Shown: one piece after another, positions 8,134-63,537 of the stretch
Numbering within the stretch: position 1 is the first letter of the stretch
How the letters are laid out: each line of letters starts with the position of its first letter
Source: Fimbriimonadales bacterium
GTDB taxonomy: Bacteria; Armatimonadota; Fimbriimonadia; Fimbriimonadales; GBS-DC
Direction: 5' to 3'
DNA length: 64,000 nt
Assembly (NCBI GenBank): GCA_025998675.1
Contig: AP024673.1
Location: forward strand, 1,081,221 to 1,145,220
The notes under the pieces: generated by a model
What the model was told of the DNA's origin: nothing
Database searches by the model: none
The model's input: the letters and a program-made list of their open reading frames with translations, nothing else
Program-made: the position numbers and the translations under genes

Positions 8134-8141
8134 AGTCCCCT

Positions 8142-8152
8142 ACTATAGTATA
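8142..8152 (-). promoter_or_regulatory. -10 elements of the kinase gene
   Basis: Overlapping TATACT (8152-8147) and TATAGT (8147-8142) lie 13 and 8 nt before the ATG at 8133. No clear Shine-Dalgarno sequence lies in the gap, so the transcript may be leaderless. Confidence 0.5.
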
Positions 8153-8165
8153 ACACAAACCCCAC

Positions 8166-9452
8166 TCAGAGACTGGTCAGCTCGCCCAGCACGCCGTCGG
8201 GCGCGAGGTCGGTGATTCGCACGGGAACCAGTTGCCCGACCATGCTCGGGGGCGCGGCGAACTCCACCTGCAGGTAGCGGTCGCTCGTGCCCATCATCAG
8301 CCCCGACAGCTTGGAGCGGGTCTCCACCAGCACGCGCTCAACGGTTCCCAGCAGGCGCGAAGCGTACCGTTGCGCCGCCGCCTTGCTCACCTGCTGGAGC
8401 CGCTGCATACGCTCCGCCTTCACGGGGTCGGGAACCTGCACGCGCATCGCCTCGGCGGGCGTGTCGGGGCGCGGCGAGTAGCGGAACAAATGCGCCCGAC
8501 AGAACTCGACCTGCTCCACCACAAAACAGGTGTTCTGGAACGCCGCGTCGTCCTCGCCCGGAAAGCCGACCATGATGTCGGTGCTGACGGCGCAGTTGGG
8601 AATGCGCGCGCGCAGGCGGCGAATCAAATCCAGATAGAACGCCTGGTCGTAGGGACGGTTCATCGCCTGCAGCACGCCCGAATCGCCGCTCTGCAGCGGG
8701 ATATGCAGGTGCGGGCACATCTTCGGATGCGTCGCGATGAGTGCAATCAGGCGATCGGTGACCAGCGTCGGCTCGATGGAGCTGATGCGGATGCGCTCCA
8801 GCCCCTCAATCGCGCCCAGCAGTTCGCACAATTCGGCAAGGTCGGGACCGCCGCTGCCTGTGTCGGGTCCGTAGTCGCCAATCAGCACCCCCGTCAGCAC
8901 GATTTCGCGGTAGCCGTCTTCGACCATCGCGTGCGCCTCCTCCAGCACTTCTGTGTAGGGCGTGCTGCGCATTACGGGGCGCGTGTAGGGGATGGAGCAG
9001 AAACTGCAGTAGACATTGCAGCCGTCCTGAATTTTCAGCACGGCGCGGCTGCGGCGACGGACGGGCGCCTCGCCCGCCTGACGCGCCTGCGCAAGCTGTT
9101 CCTTGAAGCGCGGGAACTGCTCCAGCAGGTACTCCGCCGTGCGCAGCTTGTCGGGGTTAGGTACCACCAGATGCGCCTCGTCGAGCGTCTCGCCGCGCCG
9201 AATGGTGAACTGCGCGTAGCAGCCCGTCATCACCACGACGGCGTTCGGGTTCTGACGCGCCGCGCGGCGCACCGTCTGGCGCGACTTCGCCTCCGCCGAC
9301 TGCGTCACCGAGCAGGTGTTAATCACATACACATCGGCGGGCGCGTCAAACGGCACGATTTCGAAGCCCAGCGCCTCGAACCGTTCCAGAATCTTCTGCG
9401 TCTCGTACTGATTGACCTTGCACCCCAGCGTGGTGAACGCAGCGGTCGGCAT
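8166..9452 (-). CDS. mtaB: tRNA threonylcarbamoyladenosine methylthiotransferase
   Basis: This 428-residue radical-SAM enzyme adds a methylthio group to t6A37 of tRNA. It has the N-terminal UPF0004 domain (FTTLGCKVNQYET and VINTCSVT supply cluster cysteines), the radical-SAM motif CNVYCSFCSIPY and a C-terminal TRAM-like region. The GCKVNQYE opening distinguishes MtaB from MiaB and RimO. A TACAAT element ends 9 nt before the ATG without a ribosome-binding site. The 128 bp downstream (9453-9580) contain this promoter and nothing else obvious. Confidence 0.94.
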   Translation of the reverse strand: MPTAAFTTLGCKVNQYETQKILERFEALGFEIVPFDAPADVYVINTCSVTQSAEAKSRQTVRRAARQNPNAVVVMTGCYAQFTIRRGETLDEAHLVVPNPDKLRTAEYLLEQFPRFKEQLAQARQAGEAPVRRRSRAVLKIQDGCNVYCSFCSIPYTRPVMRSTPYTEVLEEAHAMVEDGYREIVLTGVLIGDYGPDTGSGGPDLAELCELLGAIEGLERIRISSIEPTLVTDRLIALIATHPKMCPHLHIPLQSGDSGVLQAMNRPYDQAFYLDLIRRLRARIPNCAVSTDIMVGFPGEDDAAFQNTCFVVEQVEFCRAHLFRYSPRPDTPAEAMRVQVPDPVKAERMQRLQQVSKAAAQRYASRLLGTVERVLVETRSKLSGLMMGTSDRYLQVEFAAPPSMVGQLVPVRITDLAPDGVLGELTSL

Positions 9453-49829: not shown

Positions 49830-50312
49830 ATGCGGGCGACCGTTGCGCTGTGGGCGGCGTTTCTGGTGATTATCGTGCTGTTTGCGGCGTCGCTGATGGC
49901 GGCGCATCAAGCAGGCGGCGGCGCGCTTGCCCGCGCGAACGCGCCCACGATTCCTCCCGACCACCTCATTCTGGACACGGGCGACCTGATGGTTGAGGGC
50001 TGCCTCGCGCCGTTGCCCTCAGGCGAGCAGGAAGTACGCCTGAAACTGCACAACACGGGGCTGAGCGCGCTGCGCAACCTGCGGCTCGAAGTCGAGCTGG
50101 GGGGCAAGCCGCCGAAAGCGCCCGCCGCGCCCATTTCCATCCGCCGATTCCCGCGCAAGCCACAGCCAGAGGTCGTGCTGCTGTTCGAGCCGACCACGAG
50201 CCGTCAACTGCGCGTGAAGGCAAGCTATCAATGGGGGCTGCTGGGTTCGGGCGCAGGCGGCGGCGAGGCGACCAGAACGCTCGCCCCGTGTCAGAGCGCG
50301 CCAAGCCAGTGA
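49830..50312 (+). CDS. Hypothetical single-pass membrane protein
   Basis: This 160-residue product from ATG 49830 has one N-terminal anchor (VALWAAFLVIIVLFAASLMAA) and an extracytoplasmic beta-rich domain: EQEVRLKLHNTGLSALRNLRLEVELGG, a Pro-rich loop, then PEVVLLFEPTTSRQLRVKASY. The latter resembles a small Ig-like or CARDB-type fold, but I cannot name a family. It follows hpt by 4 bp and probably shares its transcript. The 3' end overlaps the convergent GH10-like gene by 22 bp. Confidence 0.6.
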   Translation: MRATVALWAAFLVIIVLFAASLMAAHQAGGGALARANAPTIPPDHLILDTGDLMVEGCLAPLPSGEQEVRLKLHNTGLSALRNLRLEVELGGKPPKAPAAPISIRRFPRKPQPEVVLLFEPTTSRQLRVKASYQWGLLGSGAGGGEATRTLAPCQSAPSQ

Positions 50313-52030
50313 ACCTGCGCCTGCTCAAGCACAAGCGCGCCGCCTGCCCCTCGGCGCAGCACACCCAGCACCGCGACCCGATCGCCCTGTAGCAGCGGAA
50401 GCGCAGGCGCGCTCACCTGCACGGCGACCGTCGCCTCGCCCAGCGCGTCGCGCACAATGAGCGGCGCGTCTGCCTGTAGCCAGTCCCCCGCGACGACCTT
50501 GTTCAGCAGCAGCACAGGCGTCCCGTCGGGCAGTTGCGTGAGGCTCTCGAGGCGGCGCACGACCTGCGCCTCCGTATCGCCCAGCAGCACAGGCAGGTTC
50601 ACGCCCAGCCCCGCCGCGACCCACACCGCGCCCAGCGACCGCGCAGGCAGCCCTTCCCCGCGGGCAATCAGCGTGTAGGCGCCCGGGGGCAGATGCACCG
50701 CCGCGAAAAAGCCATTGCCGTCCGTTGTGAGCGTGCGTACAAGCGAGCCTTCGCGATAGACCTCCACCGTCGCGCCGTCCACAGGCGAGAGGCTCCGCGC
50801 ATCCAGCACCGTGCCCATCAGGTGTCCTGCGGTGGGCGCAAGCTTCCACGGGAGGGGCGGCGTCGGAACCCACGCGCCGAAGTAGTCGCCCAGCGCACGG
50901 TAAAACGCCTCGTCGTAGCGGCGCGCGCCCTCCTCCGTACCCACGCCTGTCGTCGCCGCATATGAGAAAAAGTTCACCCCCTGCACGCGGTTGCCCGCAG
51001 GCGACGGCGCACGCGCAAACTCAATCTGCTTCAGCGTGTTCTCCAGGCTGTTGAGATAGTTGCCAATCCCCACCACGCCGATGCGCCCGTGCTGATGGTC
51101 TTTCAAAAAGGTCGCCCAGTTGCGGAAGAACGCCGCACGCGACGGGTTCGACTCGTCGTAATAGACCATCGGGATTGCCATGTCCAGAATGCCCTCTTTG
51201 AGCCAGCCCTGCCAGTCCTGAAACACGGCGCGGTAGGCGGAGCGGTTCACCCAGTCGTCGCTGGTCTGCGGTCCGTCGCCCCATGTGATGAGCGCGGCGC
51301 TGACCCGCAGGCGGGGCTTGAGCGCGGTCGCCTGCGCGTAGATTTTGCGCACCACCGCCGACACCTGATCGCGCCGCCACTGCTTCCAGAGCGGGTCGGT
51401 CGGCTCAGGCTTGCCCGTGCGCCCATACCGCTGATTGAACCGCGCCACGCTCACGGGATTGTAGCCCCAGCGCTCGCCCGTGTAGCGAATGTAGTCGAAG
51501 TGAACGCCGTCCACATCGTAGCGGCGCACGATGTCCAGCACGACTTTCGTGAACCACTCGTGATAGCGCGGGTGTCCCCAGTCGCCCCCGTAGCCCACTT
51601 CCGTGACGCGATTGCCGTCGTAGTCCTCGGTCTGGATTTCGGGCAGGCGGTTCAGGATATGCTTTGGGTCGTTGGGCCAGCCGCTGCCGGGCCAGATGGG
51701 ATGGCTATTGACCCACACATGCACCTCCACGCGCGGGGTTTCGGAATGCGCCTTCTCGATGAGGTACGCCAGCGCGTCGAAGTCCGCCTGCTGCTGCGTC
51801 GCGAACGGCTCCAGCGCGGAGCGATAGTGCGCGTCGCCGCGTTTGCGCATCTGCACAATCACGGCGTTCATATGCGCCGCCCGCACCCGCCGCAGGAGCG
51901 TATCCACCTGTTCGGGCGTATGGAACCCCTCGTTGAAGCCGTCTACCCAGAAGCCTCGAAACTCCGCCTGCGCCTGTCCCAGTGCAAATGTCATGGCAAT
52001 CCCTACCGCCAGCGTCCATCCGTATCGCAT
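50291..52030 (-). CDS. Secreted glycoside hydrolase-like 10 (GHL10) protein with carboxypeptidase-regulatory-like domain
   Basis: This 579-residue protein has a signal peptide (WTLAVGIAMTFALGQAQA) and a TIM barrel starting EFRGFWVDGFNEGFHTPEQVD, with VDGVHFDYIRYTG typical of GHL10/DUF187 proteins. At about 395-470 there is a carboxypeptidase regulatory-like beta domain (GTVLDARSLSPVDGATVEV), and the C-terminus may be OB-like. GHL10 proteins are thought to act on cell-wall or surface glycans. TACACT lies 8 nt before the ATG with no ribosome-binding site. Confidence 0.88.
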   Translation of the reverse strand: MRYGWTLAVGIAMTFALGQAQAEFRGFWVDGFNEGFHTPEQVDTLLRRVRAAHMNAVIVQMRKRGDAHYRSALEPFATQQQADFDALAYLIEKAHSETPRVEVHVWVNSHPIWPGSGWPNDPKHILNRLPEIQTEDYDGNRVTEVGYGGDWGHPRYHEWFTKVVLDIVRRYDVDGVHFDYIRYTGERWGYNPVSVARFNQRYGRTGKPEPTDPLWKQWRRDQVSAVVRKIYAQATALKPRLRVSAALITWGDGPQTSDDWVNRSAYRAVFQDWQGWLKEGILDMAIPMVYYDESNPSRAAFFRNWATFLKDHQHGRIGVVGIGNYLNSLENTLKQIEFARAPSPAGNRVQGVNFFSYAATTGVGTEEGARRYDEAFYRALGDYFGAWVPTPPLPWKLAPTAGHLMGTVLDARSLSPVDGATVEVYREGSLVRTLTTDGNGFFAAVHLPPGAYTLIARGEGLPARSLGAVWVAAGLGVNLPVLLGDTEAQVVRRLESLTQLPDGTPVLLLNKVVAGDWLQADAPLIVRDALGEATVAVQVSAPALPLLQGDRVAVLGVLRRGAGGALVLEQAQVHWLGAL

Positions 52031-52038
52031 CGGGCGAT

Positions 52039-52044
52039 AGTGTA
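52039..52044 (-). promoter_or_regulatory. -10 element of the GHL10 gene (likely leaderless)
   Basis: GTCAGGTACACT on the minus strand, 8 nt before the ATG at 52030. Confidence 0.55.
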
Positions 52045-52052
52045 CCTGACGC

Positions 52053-53177
52053 TCAGTAGCGGAACTCCAGCAGTTCCACGGGCGCGTGCGTGAGCAGCTC
52101 GCAGCCGTTGTCGGTCACCAGCACATCCTGCTCGATGCGCACGCCGCCCAGCCCCGGCACATAGACGCCCGGCTCGACGGTGAGCGCCATGCCCGCCTCC
52201 AGCGGTTTTTTGTCGCGGAACGAGAGACCCGCGCCGTCGTGAACCGCAATCCCGAGGGAGTGCCCCAGCCCGTGCCCGAAGTAGTCCGCCAGCCCGTACC
52301 CGTCCAGCGTTTTGCGGGCGAGGGCGTCCACCTGTTTGCCCTTCACGCCAGGGCGGATGGCGTCAATCGCGCGGTTCAGGGCGTCCAGCACGGCGGTATA
52401 GATTTTGCGCTGTTCGGGCGACGCGCTGCCAATCACCACCGTGCGCGTGAGGTCGGAGCAGTAGCCGTTCAGCCGCGCGCCGAAGTCCACCGTCACGAAG
52501 TCGCCGTTTTGCAGGCGTCGCTCGGAGGGCTTCCCGTGCGGCAGAGCGGAGCGCTCGCCCGACACAGCGATGGTCTCAAACGCGGGGTACGCGCCCTGAC
52601 GACGCAGGTAGAAGTCGATCTCCATCGCGATGTCCCACTCGGCGATGTCGGGCTGAAAGAGCCGCTGGATATGCTCGAAGGTCGCATCGGCGAGTTGCGC
52701 GGCGGCGCGCAGATGGGCAATCTCGTCGGCGTCTTTCACGCGGCGCAGCTTATCGACGGGCGCGCCCGCAGGCTTGAGGCGTATGCCCACCTTGCGCATC
52801 GGCTTGCGCATCCCCTGCAGCCACGCGACCGACACCGTGTTCTCCACGCCCAGCGTGCGCACGCCCAGCGCCTGCGCCGTCTCCGCCACCGTCTCGCCGA
52901 ACTCCTTCAGCGTCGGGTTCACGAGGATCGGGAGGTCCGCCACCTCGCCCTGCGCCTGAGTCGCGTAGATGCCGCCCGTCAGGAACCGCGCCTCGTCGGG
53001 GGCCAGCAGCAGCGCGCCGAACGAACCCGTGAAACCCGTCAGGTAGAACAGGTTGCCCGCGTTCACAATCAGCAGCGCGTCAGGCGGGTTTTTGCCGCCG
53101 AAGACCGCCTCCCGCAGCTTCGCCCGCCGCGCCGCGTAGCCTAATCCAGCGGCTTGAGCTTGATGTTGCGATACCAT
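52053..53177 (-). CDS. M24 family Xaa-Pro aminopeptidase
   Basis: This 374-residue protein has an N-terminal creatinase-like domain and a C-terminal pita-bread domain with all five metal ligands: Asp in VTVDFGA, Asp in DLTRTVVIG, His in FGHGLGHSLGI, Glu in TVEPGVYV and Glu in RIEQDVLV. Such enzymes remove N-terminal residues preceding proline. The chosen ATG (53177) makes the first 37 bp overlap the preceding DUF1080 gene. The conserved part begins at ARRAKLREAVFGG, so translation may start a little later. Confidence 0.92.
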   Translation of the reverse strand: MVSQHQAQAAGLGYAARRAKLREAVFGGKNPPDALLIVNAGNLFYLTGFTGSFGALLLAPDEARFLTGGIYATQAQGEVADLPILVNPTLKEFGETVAETAQALGVRTLGVENTVSVAWLQGMRKPMRKVGIRLKPAGAPVDKLRRVKDADEIAHLRAAAQLADATFEHIQRLFQPDIAEWDIAMEIDFYLRRQGAYPAFETIAVSGERSALPHGKPSERRLQNGDFVTVDFGARLNGYCSDLTRTVVIGSASPEQRKIYTAVLDALNRAIDAIRPGVKGKQVDALARKTLDGYGLADYFGHGLGHSLGIAVHDGAGLSFRDKKPLEAGMALTVEPGVYVPGLGGVRIEQDVLVTDNGCELLTHAPVELLEFRY

Positions 53178-53842
53178 ATCGGGTCGCTGTGATTCTGGAG
53201 CGCGATGTAGCCGGGGCGCGTCATCGTGTTGTAGGCGTACTTGAACTTGTTCGGCGTGCCGTCGGGATTGCGCCCTGCCTCTGTCCAGCGGCTGAGGTCC
53301 ACCTCGTTCACCTTCTCGCCGTTCAGGTAGACGACAATCTGATTATCCTTGCAGATGATGTGATAGCTGTTCCACTCGCCCGCGGGTTTGACGGCGTTTT
53401 TGCTGGGCGCCTGAATATCGTAAATCGCGCCGCAGTCGTGCTTGCTGGGCTTCTCCTTGCCGTAGCTGTCCAGCACCTGCACCTCGATGCCTGTGTGTAC
53501 GGGGTCGTTCTTGTCCCATGTGCGCAGGAACACGCCGCTGTTGCCCCGCGGGGCGACCTTGAACTCCAGCTTCAGCTCGAAGTTTTTGTAGACGCCGTCG
53601 GCGTAAATCATCCCGCCGCCGCCCTTGCCCGTGCAGTGCAGGGTTCCGTCCTCCACCACCCACGAGCCGTCGACGCCTGCGACTGTCCAGCCCTTGAGGC
53701 TCTCGCCGTCAAAGAGCAGTTTCCAGCCGTCTTTCATCTCCTGTTCGCTCAGATGGTTCGCCTGCTGCAGCGCGACGGCGACGCCGACCAGCAGCGCGAA
53801 CACGCCTATCAGAAAGGCAACGGGTTGAATTCTGGGTCTCAT
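53141..53842 (-). CDS. Secreted single-domain DUF1080 protein
   Basis: This 233-residue protein has an N-terminal signal or anchor (VAFLIGVFALLVGVAVALQQA) and one DUF1080 domain: DGWKLLFDGESLKGWTVAG, PRGNSGVFLRTWD, EVQVLDSYGKEKPSKHDCGAIYDI and WYRNIKLKPLD. Its family includes 3-keto-disaccharide hydrolases. Like the two-domain paralogue at 5175, it is preceded by a CAGGAAT-N14-CGAAAT element, so the two may be co-regulated. ATG 53840-53842 has no evident ribosome-binding site. Confidence 0.9.
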   Translation of the reverse strand: MRPRIQPVAFLIGVFALLVGVAVALQQANHLSEQEMKDGWKLLFDGESLKGWTVAGVDGSWVVEDGTLHCTGKGGGGMIYADGVYKNFELKLEFKVAPRGNSGVFLRTWDKNDPVHTGIEVQVLDSYGKEKPSKHDCGAIYDIQAPSKNAVKPAGEWNSYHIICKDNQIVVYLNGEKVNEVDLSRWTEAGRNPDGTPNKFKYAYNTMTRPGYIALQNHSDPIWYRNIKLKPLD

Positions 53843-53850
53843 AGGCAAGC

Positions 53851-53877
53851 ATTTCGCGCGGCGCACGCGAATTCCTG
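53851..53877 (-). promoter_or_regulatory. Bipartite promoter-like element, site 5 (CAGGAAT-N14-CGAAAT)
   Basis: On the minus strand CAGGAAT (53877-53871) and CGAAAT (53856-53851) are separated by 14 nt and end 8 nt before the DUF1080 ATG. Confidence 0.6.
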
Positions 53878-53924
53878 CCGCCTGAATCGGAATTTGGGCA
53901 GGGTTGGCATTCGCGCAAAAGCCC

Positions 53925-55439
53925 TCAAGACCTCTCAATCGGTATCACCACCACATCGCGCCTCTGCCACGGCGGCGTCGGCGGATGGGGCGGCTCCCTA
54001 TCCCCATACTGCCACAGCGCCCATATCACCACCGTATCCTTCGGACGCTCCGTCGGAAAGGGCGTGTACCCATCCGTCAGCACTATCACCGCGTCGGGCT
54101 TCGGCGTCAACGCCAGCGCCGCCTGCAACCCCGCCACCATATCCGTACCCCCGCCCCCGCGCAACCCTTCGCGTACCTTCAGCCAGTCGGAGCCGCGCAT
54201 CACCTGTATCGCCTCATACGGCACGGCGTCGCACGGGATAATCGTGATGGGCACCCGCAACTGCTCCAGCACCGCCCGCACCTCCGCCAGCGCCTGCGTC
54301 AACTCGCGGACGCTGATAGACCCCGAAGTGTCCACTACGCACGCCACGCGCGGGCGGTACTCGCCCTGCAGCGAGGGCAGGTACAGCGGGTGATAGACGC
54401 TCAGGCGTCGGTTCGGGCGGCGCAGGCTGTAGTCCAGCCGTTGCCCGAAGCCCTCGCTGATGGCTCCGCGCACGACGCGCTTGAGCTGCTCGCGCCAGTT
54501 GACTTTGGGCTTGAGGATTTCTTCTGCCCAGCGCACCATCGCGGCGGGAAGCGTTCCCCGATTTTTCTGGTGTTTTATGATGTTGTGCGCGACGGTTTCG
54601 CGGATGGCGTGTCGGTCGAAGTCGGAGAGTGCGGGCGCGTCGGGGCTGTCGGCGGGCAGTTCCCACGGGCGCGTCTGTCCGTGAACCCCGCTGCCCTCGT
54701 CCCAGACGCCGTTCGTCTGCGCCTGCTCGCCTGCGCCGCCTCCGCCCGCCTGCTTCTGCTCTTGCTCGCCAGAGCTGCCCCCGCCTGCCTGCTGCTCCTG
54801 CTCTTGTTCGCCTGCGCCGCCTCCGCCCGCCTGCTGCTCTTGCTCTTGCTCGCCAGAACCACTCCCGCCTGCTTGCTCTTGCTCTTGTTCGCCTGCGCCG
54901 CCTCCGCCCGCCTGCTGCTCTTGCTCTTGCTCGCCAGAACCACTCCCGCCTGCCTGCTGCTTGGATTGCCCCTGCGCCTGCAATCGCCGATAGTACCACT
55001 CCGCCGTGTGCCCCTCCTCCAGCCCGTAATCGCGCGGAAACACCGCCCGAAACGCCCTGCCAAAATCGGGATACGCCAGACCCGCTGGCAGGTAGTCGTT
55101 AATCTCCATATCGCAGGCGAGGTTCCACACCTCAGGCACGGCGCGGATGTCCGCCGCGCGCGCCTCGTGCTGGCGCAGCCAGTGCATCACCTCGTGATAC
55201 CACAGGTAGCCCAGCTGCTGCACCAGCGCGCGCCTGTCCTGTCCCGTCTGTTCGTAGAGGCGGGCGACCCAGCGGGGGTTGAAGTAGACGCGCCCGTGCG
55301 TATCGATGGCGGCGGGCGCGGGCAGTTGCTCGCTCAGGCGCATCGGGGCGGCGTAGAGGGCGGGCGCGAACCACGCCGCCTGCTCCGCCGCGTACACCCG
55401 CGCCGCGCGCACCCACGCCTCAATCGGCAACTGGCTCAT
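53925..55439 (-). CDS. DUF2201-type protein: putative metallopeptidase domain fused to a vWA domain
   Basis: This 504-residue protein has an N-terminal putative zinc metallopeptidase domain with HEVMH at 82-86 and the downstream ACDMEINDYL typical of DUF2201, a low-complexity linker of Gly/Ser and EQEQEQ repeats (about 162-241), and a C-terminal vWA domain with an intact MIDAS: DTSGS at 370-374, Thr432 (GGGGTD) and Asp456 (LTDG). vWA proteins commonly work with MoxR ATPases. It is the third gene of the MoxR-HEAT-vWA operon, coupled by an ATGA overlap. No signal peptide, so it is cytoplasmic. Confidence 0.88.
   Translation of the reverse strand: MSQLPIEAWVRAARVYAAEQAAWFAPALYAAPMRLSEQLPAPAAIDTHGRVYFNPRWVARLYEQTGQDRRALVQQLGYLWYHEVMHWLRQHEARAADIRAVPEVWNLACDMEINDYLPAGLAYPDFGRAFRAVFPRDYGLEEGHTAEWYYRRLQAQGQSKQQAGGSGSGEQEQEQQAGGGGAGEQEQEQAGGSGSGEQEQEQQAGGGGAGEQEQEQQAGGGSSGEQEQKQAGGGGAGEQAQTNGVWDEGSGVHGQTRPWELPADSPDAPALSDFDRHAIRETVAHNIIKHQKNRGTLPAAMVRWAEEILKPKVNWREQLKRVVRGAISEGFGQRLDYSLRRPNRRLSVYHPLYLPSLQGEYRPRVACVVDTSGSISVRELTQALAEVRAVLEQLRVPITIIPCDAVPYEAIQVMRGSDWLKVREGLRGGGGTDMVAGLQAALALTPKPDAVIVLTDGYTPFPTERPKDTVVIWALWQYGDREPPHPPTPPWQRRDVVVIPIERS
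54717..54953. repeat. In-frame tandem repeats encoding the vWA protein linker
   Basis: About five units alternate between GGGGAGEQEQEQQA and GGSGSGEQEQEQQA coding sequences, with long stretches of identical DNA. The regularity suggests variation in linker length by recombination. Confidence 0.8.
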
Positions 55440-57844
55440 CGCTGGTTTCTCTCCCGAATTTTTCGGAGCGCCGATCGAGCAGCTTCGCGTACCCAGCTGT
55501 ATGCATCTTGACTGACAACCCTTTCCAGCGCGGGGATGGCTTGCGAGTCGCCAATCCACCCCAACATCCAACATGCCTGCTGGCGAACCTCTGAATGTCC
55601 ATCTTCAAGCGCTCGTATGAGCGCAGGTACTGATTGGGTATCTCTTATCCACCCTAATGCCTCACACGCTAACTGGCGAACACGGTAATCCTCGTCCTTG
55701 AGCGCTTGAATGAGCGCAGGCACGGCTTGGTAGGCACCAATCCGCCCCAACGCCGCACACGCCGCCCGACGAACATCCTTATCTCCATCCCCCAGCGCCT
55801 GAATGAGCAAAGGCAGGGCAGGCGCGCCCAGTTGCACTACTGCCTCGTGAACAGTCTTGTTGCCTAACGCCCGCTGCACCACGCTCCAATCGCCTGATTG
55901 CAGCAAGCGCGTGATTGCCTCCTGCAACTCCATCGGCGGCTGACCGATGGGCTGAAGCGCGTTTTGCGCCGCCTGCTCGCCCAAAGCCACCCAAACGCTC
56001 AGCGCGGGCACGGCTTGGAGGTCGCCTATCTGCTCCAACGCCTCACACGCCGCCCGACGAACATCCTTATCTCCATCCCCCAGCGCCTGAATGAGCGCGG
56101 GCACGGCAGGTTGTCCAATCTTCACCAACGCCTCACACGCCGCCGAACGAACATTCTTATCCCCCAACGCCTGAATGAGCGCGGGGATGGCTTGCGAGTC
56201 GCCGATTGCACCCAACGCCTCACACGCCGCCCGACGAACATCCTTATCTCCATCCCCCAACGCCTGAATGAGCGCGGGGATGGCTTGCGAGTCGCCGATT
56301 GCCCCCAACGCCCCACACGCCGCCCGACGAACATCCAAATCCCTATCCCCCAGCTTTTTGATGAGCGCAGGCACGGCTTGGGGGTCGCCTATCTTACCCA
56401 ACGCCTCACTCGCCGCCGAACGAACAGCACTCTCCCTATCCCCCAGCGCTTTGATGAGCGCGGGCACGGCTTTGGGGTCGCCTATCTTACCCAACGCCCG
56501 ACACGCCGCCGAACGAACATCCCTATCCCAATCCCCCAACGCCTGAATGAGCGCGGGCACGGCTTGCGGGTCGCCGATTGCCCCCAACGCCGCACACGCC
56601 GCCGAACGAACATCCCTATCCCTATCCCCCAACGCCTGAATGAGCGCGGGCACGGCAGGTTTTCCTATCTTGCCCAACGCCACATACGCCGCCTTGCGAA
56701 CATCTTCATACCTATCCCCCAGCTTTCTGATGAGCGCGGGCACGGCTTGGGGGTCGCCTATCTGACCCAACGCCCGACACGCCGCCAAACGAACATCCCT
56801 ATCCCAATCCCCCAACGCCTGAATGAGCGCGGGCACGGCAGGTTTTCCTATCTGCTCCAACGCCGCACACGCCGCTTCTCGAACATCCCTATCCCCATCC
56901 CCCAGCTTTTTGATGAGCGCGGGCACGGCTTGGGGATCGCCTATCTGACCCAACGCCCCACACGCCGCCACACGAACATTCCTATCTCCATCCCCCAACG
57001 CCTGAATGAGCGCGGGCACAGCAGGCGCGCCCACCTGCGCCACCGCCTCACAAACTGTCTCGTTGCTCAACGCCCGCTGCACCACGCCCCAGTTGTCTGA
57101 GTGCAGCAAGCGCGTGATTGCCTCCTGCAACGCCATCGGCGGCTGACCGATGGACTGAAGCGCGTTTTGCGCCGCCTGCTCGCCTGCCGCCGCCCATACA
57201 CTCAGCGCGGGCACGGCTTGGGGGGCGCCGACTGCCCCCAACGCTTCACACGCCGCCGAACGAACATCCTTATTCCAATCCCCCAGTGCCTGAATGAGCG
57301 CAGGCACGGCTTGGGGGTCGCCGATTTTGCCCAACGCCGCACACGCCGCCGCACGAACATCCCTATCCCCATCCCCCAACGCCTGAATGAGCGCGGGCAC
57401 GGCTTGGGGGTCGCCGATTGCACCCAACGCCGCACACGCCGCCCGACGAACACTGTCCGAACCATCCCCCAACGCCTGAATGAGCGCGGGCACGGCTTGC
57501 GGGTCGCCGATTGCACCCAACGCCGCACACGCCGCCTCACGAACACTGATTGAACCATCCCCCAACGCCTGAATGAGCGCAGGCACGGCGGGCGAACCCA
57601 TCTGTGAAAGCGCATCTACCACGCGCTGTCGCAGGCTATTATCCCGCGCCCACCACTCGCGCTCCTGCAGGTAATGGCTGCACGGAGCCATCCGCGCCAG
57701 CGCCTCGCCCAGCAACTCCACACAGGGGTTGTGAACCACCTCATACTCGCCCCAACCCGTGACGCGCAGGCGCACGGGGTGCTTTTTGCCCTCCGCACAG
57801 GGCGCTTGCAACTCAATCTCAACACCTTCCCACTCCATCCTCAC
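55436..57844 (-). CDS. HEAT-repeat protein with about 19 near-identical repeats
   Basis: This 802-residue protein has an 85-residue N-terminal non-repeat part followed by HEAT/PBS-lyase-like repeats of 28-31 residues (consensus AVPALIQALGDxDxDVRxAACxALGxIGDPQ) from residue 86 to about 800. Two nearly identical 65-residue spacers interrupt the array at 210-274 and 611-675, each reading AVPALSVW ... EQAAQNALQ.IGQPPM ... LQEAITRLL. Such solenoids bind proteins or nucleic acids. It is the middle gene of the operon, with 4-bp overlaps on both sides. No enzymatic domain is visible. Confidence 0.92.
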   Translation of the reverse strand: MRMEWEGVEIELQAPCAEGKKHPVRLRVTGWGEYEVVHNPCVELLGEALARMAPCSHYLQEREWWARDNSLRQRVVDALSQMGSPAVPALIQALGDGSISVREAACAALGAIGDPQAVPALIQALGDGSDSVRRAACAALGAIGDPQAVPALIQALGDGDRDVRAAACAALGKIGDPQAVPALIQALGDWNKDVRSAACEALGAVGAPQAVPALSVWAAAGEQAAQNALQSIGQPPMALQEAITRLLHSDNWGVVQRALSNETVCEAVAQVGAPAVPALIQALGDGDRNVRVAACGALGQIGDPQAVPALIKKLGDGDRDVREAACAALEQIGKPAVPALIQALGDWDRDVRLAACRALGQIGDPQAVPALIRKLGDRYEDVRKAAYVALGKIGKPAVPALIQALGDRDRDVRSAACAALGAIGDPQAVPALIQALGDWDRDVRSAACRALGKIGDPKAVPALIKALGDRESAVRSAASEALGKIGDPQAVPALIKKLGDRDLDVRRAACGALGAIGDSQAIPALIQALGDGDKDVRRAACEALGAIGDSQAIPALIQALGDKNVRSAACEALVKIGQPAVPALIQALGDGDKDVRRAACEALEQIGDLQAVPALSVWVALGEQAAQNALQPIGQPPMELQEAITRLLQSGDWSVVQRALGNKTVHEAVVQLGAPALPLLIQALGDGDKDVRRAACAALGRIGAYQAVPALIQALKDEDYRVRQLACEALGWIRDTQSVPALIRALEDGHSEVRQQACWMLGWIGDSQAIPALERVVSQDAYSWVREAARSALRKIRERNQR

Positions 57845-59019
57845 TTCGCCTCAAGTATCTCAGTTAGCTCTCCAAAGTGCCGACTCAGCGCGCGCAGGGC
57901 GGCGGCGCTCGGCGCGTCGGCAGCCGCGCGCCCCTGCAGCCAGCCGCTCTTGATTAGCTCGCGAAAACAGGTGTAGATACTGTCGCCCTTGCGAGCGTCG
58001 GCGACCACCTGCGCGCCCTGCAAAAAACGCTGGGTACGCGCACTCAAGCGCGGGTCGCTCCCCTCCATCCCCGTCAGCAGGCTCTTCATCGTGTTGAACA
58101 ACACAAACAACTCGTCCTCGCGCAGGCTGGCGTCTACCTGCGCCTTCCCATCCAGCACCGCTTCAGGGTCAGGAATGCGCAGCGTGCGCAGATAATCCAG
58201 AAAACTCGTCGCCGCCCCCGAACCCACCGCCCCCTTGACAAGGTTGATGAACGGCTGCGCATCGCGCGGGGCGGGCTGATTAGGCGTCGGGGCGTAGCCG
58301 TGCAGCTCGCAGGTCGCCATCAGCGCAATCGCGAAGTCCCAGCTGCGCGGCGAGGCGAAAGCGTACTCGTCTTCGGCAGGCTGGGTGTGCGCCAGCGCGG
58401 GGTTGCGCTTGAGAAAGCCCGCCACAAGGTTGCGCCAGTAGACGCTGCGCGCACGATGGCGGTCGGGGTCGGTCTCGGGCAGCGTCGCCGCGCCAAACCC
58501 GCTCTCCAGCGACTGGCGGTAGCGCTCACCGTCAAGGTTCCAGTGAATATGCACAAAACGGTTCGCCAGCGGCGGGCTGAGTTCCCAGCCGACGGCGGCG
58601 AGTTCGGGGGGGTTGGCGGCGGCGGCGATGCGCACCTGCGGGGGCAGGCTATGCGCGCCCACTTTGCGTTCCAGCACCAGTCGCAGCAGCGCCGCCTGCA
58701 CGGTCGGCGGGGCGGTGGTGAGTTCATCCAGAAATAGGATGCCCTGCTGGGACTGTTCGAACACCTCCAGCCAGTCGGGTGGGGCGAAGCGCATGCGTCC
58801 GTTGTGCAGCACGGGCAGCCCGCTGAAGTCGGTGGGGTCGTGCAGGCTGGCAATCATCGTGAAGACGGGGAAGTTTTCGCGCTGGAGGCTTTCGATGAAG
58901 GTGGATTTGCCGACGCCGGGGCGTCCCCACACCAGCGCGGGCGCGCCCCAGTAGCCTTTGGGCGCTGGGGTCGCCAGCGCGAGCAGCAGTTCGGTGGCTC
59001 CTTCAGCGTAGACGGACAT
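57841..59019 (-). CDS. MoxR-like AAA+ ATPase
   Basis: This 392-residue protein has Walker A GRPGVGKST (32-40), Walker B ILFLDE (94-99), sensor 1 AAANPPE (133-139) and the SPPLANRF arginine-bearing segment (148-155). The extended C-terminal lid (about 200-390) is not the standard MoxR helical bundle, which suggests a subgroup. MoxR ATPases remodel or activate vWA-partnered complexes. It is first in the operon and is preceded by a CAGGAAT-N15-CGTATT element 11 nt before its ATG. Confidence 0.92.
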   Translation of the reverse strand: MSVYAEGATELLLALATPAPKGYWGAPALVWGRPGVGKSTFIESLQRENFPVFTMIASLHDPTDFSGLPVLHNGRMRFAPPDWLEVFEQSQQGILFLDELTTAPPTVQAALLRLVLERKVGAHSLPPQVRIAAAANPPELAAVGWELSPPLANRFVHIHWNLDGERYRQSLESGFGAATLPETDPDRHRARSVYWRNLVAGFLKRNPALAHTQPAEDEYAFASPRSWDFAIALMATCELHGYAPTPNQPAPRDAQPFINLVKGAVGSGAATSFLDYLRTLRIPDPEAVLDGKAQVDASLREDELFVLFNTMKSLLTGMEGSDPRLSARTQRFLQGAQVVADARKGDSIYTCFRELIKSGWLQGRAAADAPSAAALRALSRHFGELTEILEAK

Positions 59020-59030
59020 GGTTGTATGTA

Positions 59031-59058
59031 AATACGCGCGTCAGTGGGGGTATTCCTG
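59031..59058 (-). promoter_or_regulatory. Bipartite promoter-like element, site 6 (CAGGAAT-N15-CGTATT)
   Basis: On the minus strand CAGGAAT (59058-59052) and CGTATT (59036-59031) are separated by 15 nt and end 11 nt before the MoxR ATG. Several plus-strand G-runs (59061-59084) lie just upstream. Confidence 0.6.
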
Positions 59059-59141
59059 CTGGGTTTTTTGGGGTTTTGGGGGGGAATTTCGCGCGTCCCG
59101 CTTGCGGCGCAGACGGCGGAAGCCCGTTCCTATCACACCAA

Positions 59142-59452
59142 GCCGACCTGCGTCGGCTCAGCCCCCCCACCCCCGCAGGCAGGTGTAGGGGCGCACTGCC
59201 GTGCGCCCCGGTTCCGTTCCGCCCGCCGCTGCGACGCGCGTTTTCCCCGCAGGCAGGGTGTAGGGGCGCACGGCCGTGCGCCCCCTACATAACCACGCGC
59301 CCCTGCAAAAGGCAACAGCCCGCGCAGGCGGGCTTCGTTTTGTAGGAACGGCTTCAGCCGTCGTGCAGAGGCGTATCGGTACACGCACGGACACACCCAC
59401 AAACGGCGCACGCCCAAAAACCTACCCCATTAAGCCCCCGTAAACGGGGGGC
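59142..59452. repeat. Cluster of palindromes in a 460-bp non-coding gap
   Basis: The gap 59020-59479 holds no gene. Palindromes are: GCCGAC-CTGC-GTCGGC (59142-59157); GGGGCGCAC ... GTGCGCCCC (59188-59209); a 29-bp palindrome GTAGGGGCGCAC ... (59260-59288); ACGGCT-TC-AGCCGT (59348-59361); and GCCCCCG-TAAA-CGGGGGGC (59434-59452). The second and third belong to a direct repeat that starts CCCCGCAGGCAGG (59171 and about 59245). These look like REP-type mobile palindromes. Confidence 0.75.
59317..59342 (+). terminator. Rho-independent terminator-like hairpin
   Basis: AGCCCGC-GCAG-GCGGGCT is followed by TCGTTTTGT on the plus strand. No plus-strand gene leads into it, so it may serve the minus-strand transcripts poorly, or belong to an untranslated or lost plus-strand unit. 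Confidence 0.5.
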
Positions 59453-59479
59453 ACAGTTGAAATAGTAAGACAACGACAT

Positions 59480-60064
59480 TTAAATCTTGAAATCCTCGAC
59501 GGTCAGGTTCGGGAAGGCGTAGTCGGTGTAGAGGCGCAGGGAGCGCACCCCCTTCGCGTCGGCGTACTCGATGCGCAGCGGCATCAGGTCGGTGCGCTCA
59601 AGCGTGAACGCTACTCGCTGCACGGGGTCGTTTCGCGGCGCGAAGATGAGCTGGTAGCCGTTGCGTTGCCCCTGCTGCACGCTTTTGACAGGCTCCGCCT
59701 TCGCGCCGCGAAACAGCCGCTGCAGGTCTTTCAGGATGTACCCCAGATCGGTCTCGAAAAAGCGCGCGATTTCGGGGTCGTTGAGTTCGTACACGCGGCG
59801 GATGAACCCCTTGCGGGCGTGTACCTTTTTCTCCGCGTCGGGGTTATAGGTCAGCACCGCGCCGTTGCTGAAGGCGTCGCGCTGCACGATGGTCATTTTG
59901 CGGTAGTGCGGCTGCAAAAACTCCAGCGTGTAGATTTGCTTCGCGCCGAGCTTGCCCGTGCGCTCCTCGCGCTCCTGAAACTCCCAAGTGTAGCGGTAGG
60001 CGCGTGTGCGGGCGACCTTCTGCGCGAACTGCGCCATCAGTTGCTGCGGGGTTGGGGGTTGCAT
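59480..60064 (-). CDS. LolA-like protein
   Basis: This 194-residue protein has the LolA/DUF1571-type pattern: YRYTWEFQEREERTGKLGAKQIYTLEFLQPHYRKMTI, GAVLTYNPDAEKKVHARKG, NGYQLIFAPRNDP and DLMPLRIEYADAKGVRSLRLYTDY. As in the protein at 38819, no signal peptide is seen. ATG 60062-60064 has GGAGGTG upstream. It follows the sugar isomerase gene by 3 bp on the same strand, so it is in that operon. Confidence 0.65.
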   Translation of the reverse strand: MQPPTPQQLMAQFAQKVARTRAYRYTWEFQEREERTGKLGAKQIYTLEFLQPHYRKMTIVQRDAFSNGAVLTYNPDAEKKVHARKGFIRRVYELNDPEIARFFETDLGYILKDLQRLFRGAKAEPVKSVQQGQRNGYQLIFAPRNDPVQRVAFTLERTDLMPLRIEYADAKGVRSLRLYTDYAFPNLTVEDFKI

Positions 60065-60067
60065 AGC

Positions 60068-60907
60068 TCACACCTCCGGCGCGATGAACTGCTCCAGGTA
60101 GCGTTTGCCGATGAGGAAGCCCTCCTCGCGTCCGACGGCGGCGTCCTCGTGTTCAATCGACAGCACGCCGTTGTAGCCGACGCGGCGCAGCGCGCCGATA
60201 TACTCGCCCCAGCGCACGCTGCCCAGCCCCGGAATCACATACCGCCACCAGCCGCTGCCCTGATTGCCCACATACTCCAGCCGCGTGCGCATCACCTCCG
60301 TGTCTTTCGCGTGCGTGTGGAAGATGCGCGAGCCGAACAGGAACACCGCGTTGATGTAGTCAATCTGCTGCCAGAGCAGGTGCGAGGGGTCGAAGTTCAG
60401 CCCGAAGTTGGGGTGCGGCACGACTTCGAACAGCCGCTGCCAGTGGTCCAGCGCCTGGATGTTGGTCGCGAACCAGTTTTCGAGGGCGATATTCACCCCG
60501 CGCTCGCCCGCGTACTCGCAGAGCGGATGGAACACTTCGGCGCAGTCTTCCTCGATGGTCTGGATTTTGCTCTTGCCGGGCATGGGGTGTCCCGCGAGGG
60601 TGCAGACGACTTCCACGCCCAGCGTGTGCGCAATCTCGATGGCGCGTCGCACGCCCGCGTTGTTGCGCGCGCGCTCGTTCGGGTCGGGATGGGTGTTGTT
60701 CGTGTAGAACGCGACGGCGGACAGGCGCACGCCCGTGCGCTCCATCAGACGCTGCAGCGCGTCCACATCGGGATTGTCCAGATTGAGGTGCGGATGCCCG
60801 TACCCGCACGCGAGCTCGAGCGTTTTGAACCCGTGCTTCTGCGCGAACTCGAAGACCTTCTCCAGCGGCTCGTTCGAAAACGGCGCGGTCAAAATGCCCA
60901 CATGCAT
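60068..60907 (-). CDS. Sugar phosphate isomerase/epimerase (AP-endonuclease-2-like TIM barrel)
   Basis: This 279-residue protein has the TIM barrel and metal ligands of the xylose-isomerase-like family: LENW (Glu), NFDPSH (Asp), FHTHAKD (His) and SIEHED (Glu). The N-terminus MHVGILTAPFSNEPLEKVFEFA and LELACGYGHPHLN support this. Such enzymes isomerise or epimerise keto-sugars or inositols and often work with Gfo/Idh/MocA enzymes. A CAGGAAT-N14-CGAAAC element lies 11 nt before the ATG. Confidence 0.92.
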   Translation of the reverse strand: MHVGILTAPFSNEPLEKVFEFAQKHGFKTLELACGYGHPHLNLDNPDVDALQRLMERTGVRLSAVAFYTNNTHPDPNERARNNAGVRRAIEIAHTLGVEVVCTLAGHPMPGKSKIQTIEEDCAEVFHPLCEYAGERGVNIALENWFATNIQALDHWQRLFEVVPHPNFGLNFDPSHLLWQQIDYINAVFLFGSRIFHTHAKDTEVMRTRLEYVGNQGSGWWRYVIPGLGSVRWGEYIGALRRVGYNGVLSIEHEDAAVGREEGFLIGKRYLEQFIAPEV

Positions 60908-60918
60908 AGTGTATGGGG

Positions 60919-60945
60919 GTTTCGAGGCGCGCGCGGGGATTCCTG
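60919..60945 (-). promoter_or_regulatory. Bipartite promoter-like element, site 7 (CAGGAAT-N14-CGAAAC)
   Basis: On the minus strand CAGGAAT (60945-60939) and CGAAAC (60924-60919) are separated by 14 nt and end 11 nt before the isomerase ATG. Confidence 0.6.
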
Positions 60946-60955
60946 CCGACGGGCG

Positions 60956-62202: not shown

Positions 62203-62823
62203 TCACCCCGCCGCGCCTAACATGCGCAGGAACTGTCGGGCGGCGTCGGCGGGGTCGGGCGCGCCCACAATCGCCGAGATGACGCAGATCCCGTCCGCGC
62301 CCGCCTGCAACACTTCGGGCGCGTTCTGCAGGGTAATCCCGCCTATGCCGAACACGGGGACGGCGACCGCCTGCTTGATGGCGCGCAGGCGTTCGGGTCC
62401 AACGGGCGCGCCCGCATCGGGCTTGGTGTGCGTGGCGAACATCGGTCCCACGCCCAGATAGTCCGCGCCGTCCGCTTCTGCCTGACGCGCCTCCTCAATC
62501 GTTTCCGCCGAGACGCCAATCAGCAGTCGCGCGCCCGCAATCCGCCGCGCCTGCGCCACAGGCAGATCGTCCTGCCCCAGATGCACCCCGTCCGCCTCGA
62601 TTGCCAGCGCGACATCGAGTCGGTCGTTCACAATCAGCAGTGCATCGTGCTGGCGCGTAAGAGCCCGCAACTGCTCCCCCATTTGCACAAGTTCGCGCGT
62701 GGTCGCCGTCTTGTCGCGCAGTTGCAGCAGGCGCACGCCCGCCGCCAGAACCTCCCGCGCCGTCTCCACAGGGTCGCGCAGCGCACGCTCGGTAATCACA
62801 TACAGCCCCGAAAGACGCTTCAT
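62203..62823 (-). CDS. thiE: Thiamine phosphate synthase
   Basis: This 206-residue TIM barrel joins the pyrimidine and thiazole moieties of thiamine. It has LLQLRDKTATTRELV, NDRLDVALAIEADGVHLGQDDLPV, GVSAETIEEARQAEADGADYLGVGPMFATHTK and FGIGGI, all diagnostic. Length is normal. TACAAT lies 13 nt before the ATG. No THI-box riboswitch is visible in the 67-bp gap upstream. Confidence 0.96.
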   Translation of the reverse strand: MKRLSGLYVITERALRDPVETAREVLAAGVRLLQLRDKTATTRELVQMGEQLRALTRQHDALLIVNDRLDVALAIEADGVHLGQDDLPVAQARRIAGARLLIGVSAETIEEARQAEADGADYLGVGPMFATHTKPDAGAPVGPERLRAIKQAVAVPVFGIGGITLQNAPEVLQAGADGICVISAIVGAPDPADAARQFLRMLGAAG

Positions 62824-62836
62824 TACCGTGTGCGCG

Positions 62837-62842
62837 ATTGTA
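62837..62842 (-). promoter_or_regulatory. -10 element of thiE
   Basis: GTCAGGTACAAT on the minus strand, 13 nt before the thiE ATG, divergent from the TATACT element of the antitoxin gene. Confidence 0.5.
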
Positions 62843-62876
62843 CCTGACCCTGTAGCTATCGATAGGTATGGTGCGG

Positions 62877-62882
62877 TATACT
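62877..62882 (+). promoter_or_regulatory. -10 element of the VapBC-type pair (likely leaderless)
   Basis: GCGGTATACT is followed after 8 nt by GTG 62891, with no ribosome-binding site. Confidence 0.6.
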
Positions 62883-62890
62883 CTGAATGG

Positions 62891-63166
62891 GTGAGAACTT
62901 TGCCAGAGCTTGAACTTTCAGAAGAGCAAATCGCCGAGCTGGTGAGTCAGCTGCCCCCGGCGGGCAAGCGCCGATTAATGCAGTTGCTCGATCGAATGCT
63001 CAATCAGGAAGCTGAGCCCTATGCGACTGCCAGGATGTCAAGCGAGGAGTTCGCTCGACTCTCCTGCTTTGGCATGTGGGCAGACCACGATGCCATGCTC
63101 GACAGCGTGGCATGGGTGCGCAAGGAGCGTCAACAGTGGCACTCGCGAGTGAGTCCGCGCGATTAA
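62891..63166 (+). CDS. Probable antitoxin of a VapBC-type module
   Basis: This 91-residue product from GTG 62891 has a helical N-terminus (LPELELSEEQIAELVSQLPPAGKRRLMQLLDRML) and a C-terminal region with FGMWADHDAMLDSVAWVRKERQQWH, which resembles short antitoxins encoded before PIN toxins. The C-terminal Trp-rich helix may insert into the toxin groove. It overlaps the toxin gene by 31 bp. The N-terminus shows no classic AbrB or ribbon-helix-helix fold. Confidence 0.7.
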   Translation: MRTLPELELSEEQIAELVSQLPPAGKRRLMQLLDRMLNQEAEPYATARMSSEEFARLSCFGMWADHDAMLDSVAWVRKERQQWHSRVSPRD

Positions 63167-63537
63167 TAGACACTGATATTCTGGTCGATGCGCTGCGCGG
63201 CGTCGCGGATGCCGTCAACTTCCTAACGCTCCAGCATGCACAATCGGTGATACAGCTTAGCGTAGTTTCTGCGATGGAGTTAATCGCAGGGTGCCGCAAC
63301 GCGCAGGAACTTACTCGATTACAACAGTTCCTGCAACAAGCCACGATAATACCGATAGATACCGAAGTTTCTTGGAAAGCGCATCAACTGATGAAAGAGT
63401 TTTTCCTCAGTCATGGGCTTCTGATACCTGATGCCCTAATTGCCGCCACCGCCCTTCAGCACGAACTCACACTTTGCACCAGGAATAGTCGCCACTTCCA
63501 GATGATTCCAGAGCTGAAACTTTTGCGCCCGTATTGA
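63136..63537 (+). CDS. PIN-domain ribonuclease toxin (VapC type)
   Basis: This 133-residue product from GTG 63136, 8 nt after AAGGAG, has the PIN fold: LIDTDILVDALRG (first acidic residue), SVVSAMELIAGCRNAQEL (conserved Glu), HGLLIPDALIAATALQHELTLCTRNSRHFQMIPELKLL (third and fourth acidic and NxxHF). VapC toxins cleave tRNA or rRNA. The upstream, overlapping gene is its likely antitoxin. The open frame before 63136 is inside the antitoxin gene. Confidence 0.88.
   Translation: MALASESARLIDTDILVDALRGVADAVNFLTLQHAQSVIQLSVVSAMELIAGCRNAQELTRLQQFLQQATIIPIDTEVSWKAHQLMKEFFLSHGLLIPDALIAATALQHELTLCTRNSRHFQMIPELKLLRPY

Follow-up and report, generated by a model that had tools for sequence, protein, structure and literature searches.

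A MoxR-type AAA+ ATPase, a HEAT-repeat solenoid and a DUF2201 protein with a putative metallopeptidase domain are encoded by three coupled genes in a 64,000-nucleotide stretch of DNA (the window). The stretch comes from a hot-spring bacterium of the phylum Armatimonadota, order Fimbriimonadales, whose genome is a single contig of 2.99 Mb; its closest named relatives are metagenome-assembled genomes of Armatimonadetes/Fimbriimonadales. We propose, with moderate confidence, that the trio is a machine that uses ATP to remodel or proteolyse its targets and recognises them through an exchangeable solenoid adaptor. The same three kinds of gene occur together, in other orders, in distant bacteria, and the encoded proteins therefore probably work as one machine. 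The sequences document the architecture of the trio, the conservation of its motifs, the recurrent linkage of its genes, the variability of the repeats and the mobility of the cassette.

Architecture and recurrence of the gene trio

All three open reading frames (ORFs) of the trio are intact and lie on the minus strand in the order MoxR, HEAT, DUF2201 (Table 1). ORF calls, Pfam and motif inspection confirmed what an earlier note on this DNA had described: a MoxR protein with Walker motifs, a HEAT protein of 802 residues and a DUF2201 protein with HEVMH and DTSGS. The note had also placed 4-bp ATGA overlaps at both junctions. This holds for HEAT/DUF2201, but the MoxR/HEAT overlap reads GTGA. 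The HEAT protein is 802 amino acids (aa) long when started at GTG, and 800 aa when started at an alternative ATG at position 57838.

To survey the recurrence of the trio, 40 DUF2201_N loci were taken from 291 Armatimonadota genomes. Further loci came from two other phyla, that of L070 (probably Chloroflexota; 350 genomes) and that of L068 (Bacteroidota; 395 genomes), and from named public genomes (G, L and f mark our codes for genomes, loci and families). Our repeat hidden Markov model overlooked divergent solenoids, such as that of L114, and Pfam was run on the neighbours instead. A HEAT gene was found to adjoin the MoxR-DUF2201 pair, with a stop/start overlap or near-overlap, in the Armatimonadota families f1, f17 and f19 and in Bacteroidota. 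The order is HEAT-MoxR-DUF2201 in L097 (G122), L091 (G186) and the Bacteroidota genome of L068, and MoxR-DUF2201-HEAT, with an ATGA overlap, in L077 (G180). In a second genome of the L068 phylum (L127), the pair is followed by a weak HEAT_2 match (E 0.002). The trio loci thus show three gene orders in two phyla, and the genes are often translationally coupled. HEAT as a recurring third partner of the pair, as the note had proposed, is borne out by this survey, in which the gene is conserved with the pair.

Because a genome carries about 4-15 HEAT genes when distinct frames are counted (eight in the genome of the window), chance adjacency is expected at about 0.2-1.5% per pair. With loci counted singly, HEAT adjacency at six of ~45 loci has a chance probability of ~2e-6 (2.4e-6), and after collapsing by family, adjacency at four of ~30 loci has one of ~1e-4 (1.2e-4); both locus totals are our own approximate counts. 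In the DUF2201 tree, the family of the window formed one clade with L091, L097, L068, L067 and L127 (support 1.00), and five of its six lineages have a HEAT or weak HEAT-like gene.

The history of the locus was followed in closer relatives. In G016, which belongs to the same family and another genus, MoxR is followed by HEAT (372 aa), an 86-aa N-terminal remnant of DUF2201, a second HEAT (275 aa) and DUF2201. This order corresponds to a tandem duplication in which ATGA was kept at both HEAT-DUF2201 overlaps. Between the window and G016 the identity is 92% for MoxR and 88% for DUF2201, compared with ~52-67% for the solenoids. Decayed remnants of the trio are present in G014 and G005. In G007, two PIN toxin-antitoxin pairs lie between MoxR and HEAT, beside a duplicated MoxR gene end (L051, 3509-5060), and the DUF2201 gene sits on a separate contig.

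At two loci (L114 and L085) an LRV solenoid takes the place of HEAT. The order is LRV (annotated as HEAT)-DUF2201-MoxR on plasmid pMESIL01 of Allomeiothermus silvanus (L114) and LRV-MoxR-DUF2201, with overlap, in G081. Weak WD40 matches in Pfam, to which we give low weight, were found just downstream of the pair in L076 and L078, and possibly a WD40-like protein holds the solenoid slot there. The HEAT-bearing plasmids L132-L134 contained no MoxR-DUF2201 trio.

Conserved motifs and the variable HEAT surface

The MoxR protein matched AAA_5 above the Pfam cutoff and AAA_3 just below it. The arginines of its ANRF and SPRSW motifs are invariant in the alignment, and the protein thus combines Walker A and B motifs with conserved arginines in an AAA_5/AAA_3-type module, as expected of an AAA+ ATPase. 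In a profile search against solved structures, the best match was to the AAA modules of midasin (E 3e-16). Among phage families it matched PHROG 1297, labelled 'ATPase' (7e-55).

For the DUF2201 protein, Pfam returned DUF2201_N (PF13203, 3e-31), DUF2201 (PF09967, 7e-18) and weak VWA matches, a weak VWA_CoxE match among them. The residues H82, E83 and H86 of the HExxH motif, H91, N106, D110 and those of the metal-ion-dependent adhesion site (MIDAS) are kept in full-length homologues at 60-88% identity, so the peptidase residues are retained in close relatives. The DUF2201 clade as a whole retains HExxH and MIDAS as well; HExxH was present in all members inspected, and the MIDAS of L127 reads DTSAS. 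The AF2 model (pLDDT 72 overall) shows a confident N-terminal helical domain with HExxH and a mediocre von Willebrand factor A (vWA) domain. In a fold search against PDB only the vWA region was matched. Its best match by sequence was the Mg-chelatase subunit BchD (0.0018), and by fold the MIDAS domain of MDN1, Rpn10 and, more weakly, NorQD. The Gln/Gly-rich linker is encoded by 42/81-bp tandem repeats (window 54724-54961), and its length varies among relatives. PHROG 1314 and vibriophage records, a family labelled 'HNH endonuclease', match the DUF2201 protein at 1.6e-55; the label is probably a misannotation.

In the HEAT protein, Pfam found repeat families only (HEAT_2, E 7e-229), and the AF2 model (pLDDT 85) consists of an unbroken solenoid behind a low-confidence N-terminal cap. 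The closest solved sequences are alphaRep binders. Among 16 aligned HEAT units, variation is greatest at positions 6, 10, 14, 18 and 30, the first four of which lie at -2, +2, +6 and +10 from a conserved VR. According to our reading of the alignment, four of the five coincide with the randomised alphaRep positions 18, 22, 26 and 30. The earlier note had cast the HEAT protein as the recogniser of a target, and the comparison of sequences supports this, since its variable surface corresponds to a known engineered protein-binding surface. The ratio of nonsynonymous to synonymous differences between units (pN/pS) was 1.61 at three helix-B surface positions (10/14/18) of the window HEAT protein versus 0.29 in its framework. 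The remaining trio copies with enough repeats gave 0.64 (G007) and 1.10 at the same positions, and selection on the HEAT surface is therefore suggested, not proven.

The cap family is restricted to f1, with a probable further match in L097 (E 0.01 over 7568 ORFs). Homology of the cap across phyla was not upheld, the matches beyond L097 being suggestive at most: the scores of L127, L068 and L118 reach the upper end of those of shuffled controls, and that of L069 does not. The genome of the window has three further stand-alone capped HEAT genes without MoxR (L059 5046-7117, L060 4974-6083 and L061 3870-5624), one of which adjoins an insertion sequence (IS) transposase-like gene.

Table 1. Features of the trio locus, with positions in the window
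Feature	Position	Strand	Basis or remark
MoxR-type AAA+ ATPase, 392 aa	57841..59019	-	ORF call, Pfam, residue alignment
Walker A GRPGVGKST	58900-58926	-	in MoxR
Walker B LFLDEL	58720-58737	-	in MoxR
HEAT-repeat solenoid, 802 aa, ~20 repeat units	55436..57844	-	Pfam, AF2
N-terminal cap outside the HEAT repeats, ~60 aa, conserved in family; b-b-b-a predicted with low confidence	57665..57838	-	AF2, homologue comparison
93-bp tandem DNA array inside HEAT gene	56001-57589	-	repeat analysis
DUF2201 protein, 504 aa: N-terminal HExxH putative metallopeptidase, disordered linker, C-terminal vWA	53925..55439	-	Pfam, AF2
HEVMH zinc-binding/catalytic motif, residues 82-86; H91, N106 and D110 also conserved	55182..55196	-	alignments
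Gln/Glu/Gly-rich disordered linker, residues 162-247, pLDDT <50	54699..54956	-	AF2
MIDAS DTSGS, residues 370-374; T432 and D456 likewise invariant	54318..54332	-	alignments
GTGA stop/start overlap MoxR/HEAT	57841..57844	-	sequence
ATGA stop/start overlap HEAT/DUF2201	55436..55439	-	sequence
GCAGGAAT, promoter-like octamer, ~33 bp upstream of MoxR	59052..59059	-	window motif count
Whole cassette and upstream intergenic DNA, missing from sister genome G008 at the homologous site	53881..59481	.	L137 comparison
Short palindromic repeats, dispersed; same family on both sides of the L016 trio	59112..59370	.	upstream of MoxR

Proposed machine, mobility and alternative explanations

In the proposed machine, MoxR would form a hexameric ring and the DUF2201 protein would be its co-chaperone, with the vWA domain docked on the ring and the MIDAS gripping an acidic residue of a partner. 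The long flexible linker would tie the vWA domain to the N-terminal zinc metallopeptidase-like domain. The HEAT protein would be the target receptor, binding the client through the variable positions of its solenoid, and its cap may contact the motor or the vWA protein. The client would be remodelled by ATP-driven pulling or twisting and then cleaved by the peptidase domain. Complex formation, target binding and proteolysis are what we infer here, and the biological role may lie in conflict or in quality control. The cassette would be an accessory module that spreads horizontally. Its solenoid would change quickly or give way to other repeat proteins, and the target would therefore probably differ between hosts. 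A broader claim, which we put forward only tentatively, is a class of adaptor-programmed proteolytic machines in which one engine is served by HEAT, LRV and perhaps WD40 receptors, with alphaRep-like specificity, horizontal spread and possibly an immune-like function.

Several observations weigh against such a machine. L067 belongs to the HEAT-bearing DUF2201 clade and has no HEAT or HEAT-like neighbour. The catalytic Glu is substituted in two actinobacterial DUF2201 homologues (L069 and L071). HEAT paralogues with the same cap stand alone, also in G013, a genome with neither MoxR nor DUF2201, and the relation of the cap to distant third genes is at most suggestive, with the cap model itself of low confidence. 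The repeat variability could be neutral surface drift, as the pN/pS value of G007 illustrates. Finally, many MoxR-DUF2201 pairs have no repeat gene as a neighbour, and none was found beside any phage or viral-contig pair checked; the third member is therefore common in some clades and not universal.

The mobility of the cassette was followed by comparison with related genomes. In the sister genome G008 (L137), 33 bp separate the counterparts of window 50000-53880 and 59482-60949, an empty site that would reflect either a gain in the genome of the window or a loss in G008. The DNA of the trio is 85-86% identical between the window and G016, which exceeds the identity of the backbone: the protein encoded at 50291-52030 is 65% identical, and a cystathionine-synthase-like gene of a G016-like contig is 74% identical in DNA. 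This contig, binned in G008 (C32, L003), carries a 99.5% identical cassette end at another location. A near-identical G016 trio in G008 itself was nevertheless rejected: the flank of C32 is 90% identical to G016 and 74% to the genus of the window, G008 has its own copy elsewhere, and the contig appears to be misbinned from a G016-like species. Short palindromic repeats of one family surround the trio of L016 and stand ahead of MoxR in the window. Taken together, these comparisons point to horizontal movement of the cassette, measured with a thin yardstick of one or two backbone genes.

A part in defence or conflict, in which the HEAT protein would sense an invader protein and license the MoxR-driven peptidase against the invader or the host, seems possible but doubtful to us; it would be one use of the proposed machine and not a rival mechanism. 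It is consistent with the patchy distribution, the insertion at an otherwise empty site and the horizontal transfer. The plasmid copy of Allomeiothermus, the MoxR-DUF2201 pair on the CRISPR/toxin-antitoxin plasmid pSYSA, the VapBC-like PIN pairs that interrupt the locus of G007 and the analogy with ternary conflict systems (PMC7159879) fit it as well. However, the genes around the trio in the window, read from translations, are housekeeping genes (DNA ligase, an NADH dehydrogenase subunit, glycogen synthase, ThiE and others), and the location in a defence island foreseen in the earlier note therefore fails for the window. PADLOC returned nothing for DUF2201, weak generic AAA matches for MoxR and generic repeat matches for HEAT. 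A comparison of 34 flanking proteins with defence families gave just six scattered single matches, their owners not specified. Moreover, toxin-antitoxin pairs are generally common, and phages themselves carry the DUF2201 pair.

We consider it rather unlikely that the trio matures or activates an enzyme as chaperones of the NorQD/CbbQO/CoxDE or chelatase kind do, a reading in which HExxH would be metal-inserting or structural and the HEAT protein would recognise one host enzyme. The layout of DUF2201 is that of NorD (N-terminal domain, disordered linker, vWA), its vWA domain resembles BchD by sequence and NorQD, along with midasin, by fold, a weak VWA_CoxE match exists, and metabolic genes are among the chromosomal neighbours. 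Yet the neighbours differ between the window, L016, L068, L091, L097, L077 and L114, which leaves no constant client enzyme, and the solenoid diverges fast between close relatives. The conservation of HExxH also exceeds the need of a structural domain.

An origin from a phage pair for virion assembly or processing, domesticated by the host and later joined by HEAT as an accessory, is improbable. MoxR and DUF2201 both match phage families at ~1e-55, the jumbo-phage pair has been proposed to act in virion assembly (PMC7824862), and further pairs were found in phages and IMG/VR; still, there are no other phage genes around the trio, phage homologues are much more distant than bacterial ones, and no HEAT gene was seen at the phage loci checked. 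Least probable of all is that a selfish, expanding repeat family landed in the operon and made HEAT a chance neighbour: the genome does hold eight HEAT genes, with three capped paralogues standing alone and one of these by the IS transposase-like gene, but adjacency with overlap recurs in several lineages and three gene orders, and G016 kept HEAT through the tandem duplication with both HEAT-DUF2201 overlaps intact.

A promoter element shared with other genes had been taken in the earlier note as a sign of stress-type induction. Such an element exists, although it is weak: the octamer GCAGGAAT occurs four times in the window against 2.24 expected, and 20 of 100 shuffles reach four copies. All four copies fall in gene-start regions, which cover ~5% of the DNA, and the octamer is also found upstream of the MoxR homologue in L016, L053 and L054. 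As metabolic genes share it, it provides no argument for stress induction.

Some further observations concern the surroundings of the window trio and of related pairs. A VapBC-like pair, with a PIN-domain toxin (E 1.4e-14) after a small gene, lies ~3.7 kb from the trio (window 62699-63537). On Synechocystis pSYSA (L130, 8267-16631), an LRV repeat protein is encoded ~4 kb from the MoxR-DUF2201 pair. In G118 (L096, 2778-5338), the pair directly follows a gene for a Hen1-type RNA-repair methyltransferase (PF12623, 4e-114). Downstream of the acidimicrobial DUF2201 gene of L069, positions 6870-8486 encode a protein that has tryptophan-spaced helical repeats but matches nothing in Pfam.

Comparison with known systems

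The core of the trio is already known. Group 2.2 jumbo phages carry a pair of a MoxR AAA+ ATPase and a metallopeptidase-vWA protein, for which a function in virion assembly was proposed (PMC7824862). The window has the same core of MoxR and a vWA protein, the latter with a putative metallopeptidase domain at its N-terminus. The phage pair has no repeat partner, whereas in the window a coupled HEAT gene stands between the two on a bacterial chromosome.

Ternary conflict systems of MoxR, a vWA protein and a third component are also known, in VMAP, iSTAND, FtsH and beta-propeller types (PMC7159879). In those systems repeat domains are modules on the vWA protein. In the window, by contrast, the third component is a separate HEAT protein, and the vWA protein is a DUF2201 protein with its own HExxH; the family name DUF2201 is not mentioned in PMC7159879. 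None of the four types was recognised in the window. The Pfam scan of the HEAT protein gave repeat families and no VMAP-C domain (the presence of the VMAP-C model in the library is unconfirmed), and no P-loop/STAND family as in the iSTAND type. No additional AAA+ gene lies next to the window trio as in the FtsH type, and DUF2201 showed only PF13203, PF09967 and weak VWA matches, with no beta-propeller.

In NorQD and CbbQO, a MoxR hexamer works with a vWA partner laid out as N-terminal domain, disordered linker and vWA, and DUF2201 matches this partner in layout only. According to a published proposal, the NorQ ring rotates the vWA domain of NorD and thereby remodels the client (PMC13036017); the MIDAS of NorD is required for client activation (PMC9976466). 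These systems serve metal insertion into one enzyme and have no HEAT subunit, and no peptidase function is described for NorD; the constant linkage to a client enzyme that marks them was not found at the trio loci, where the neighbours differ each time. Midasin (Rea1/Mdn1) provides the best solved match to the MoxR profile, and the MIDAS domain of MDN1 matches the DUF2201 vWA by fold, but midasin is a single giant eukaryotic ribosome-assembly protein without a peptidase. The artificial alphaRep binders consist of 31-aa HEAT units with a very similar consensus and variability at the same surface positions. They are library proteins without a motor partner.

The open-licence PMC literature yielded no paper combining MoxR, HEAT repeats and a metalloprotease, and none in which the DUF2201 branch has a HEAT or LRV protein as a separate, coupled third member. 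Should the solenoid serve an ATP-driven peptidase as target receptor, its variable positions would be a readable, alphaRep-like specificity code on an engine of destruction or remodelling, and they would offer a testable model of how a bacterial chaperone-protease chooses its client. The uncharacterised DUF2201 family would then gain a role, and a repeat-protein branch would be added to the MoxR-vWA ternary systems.

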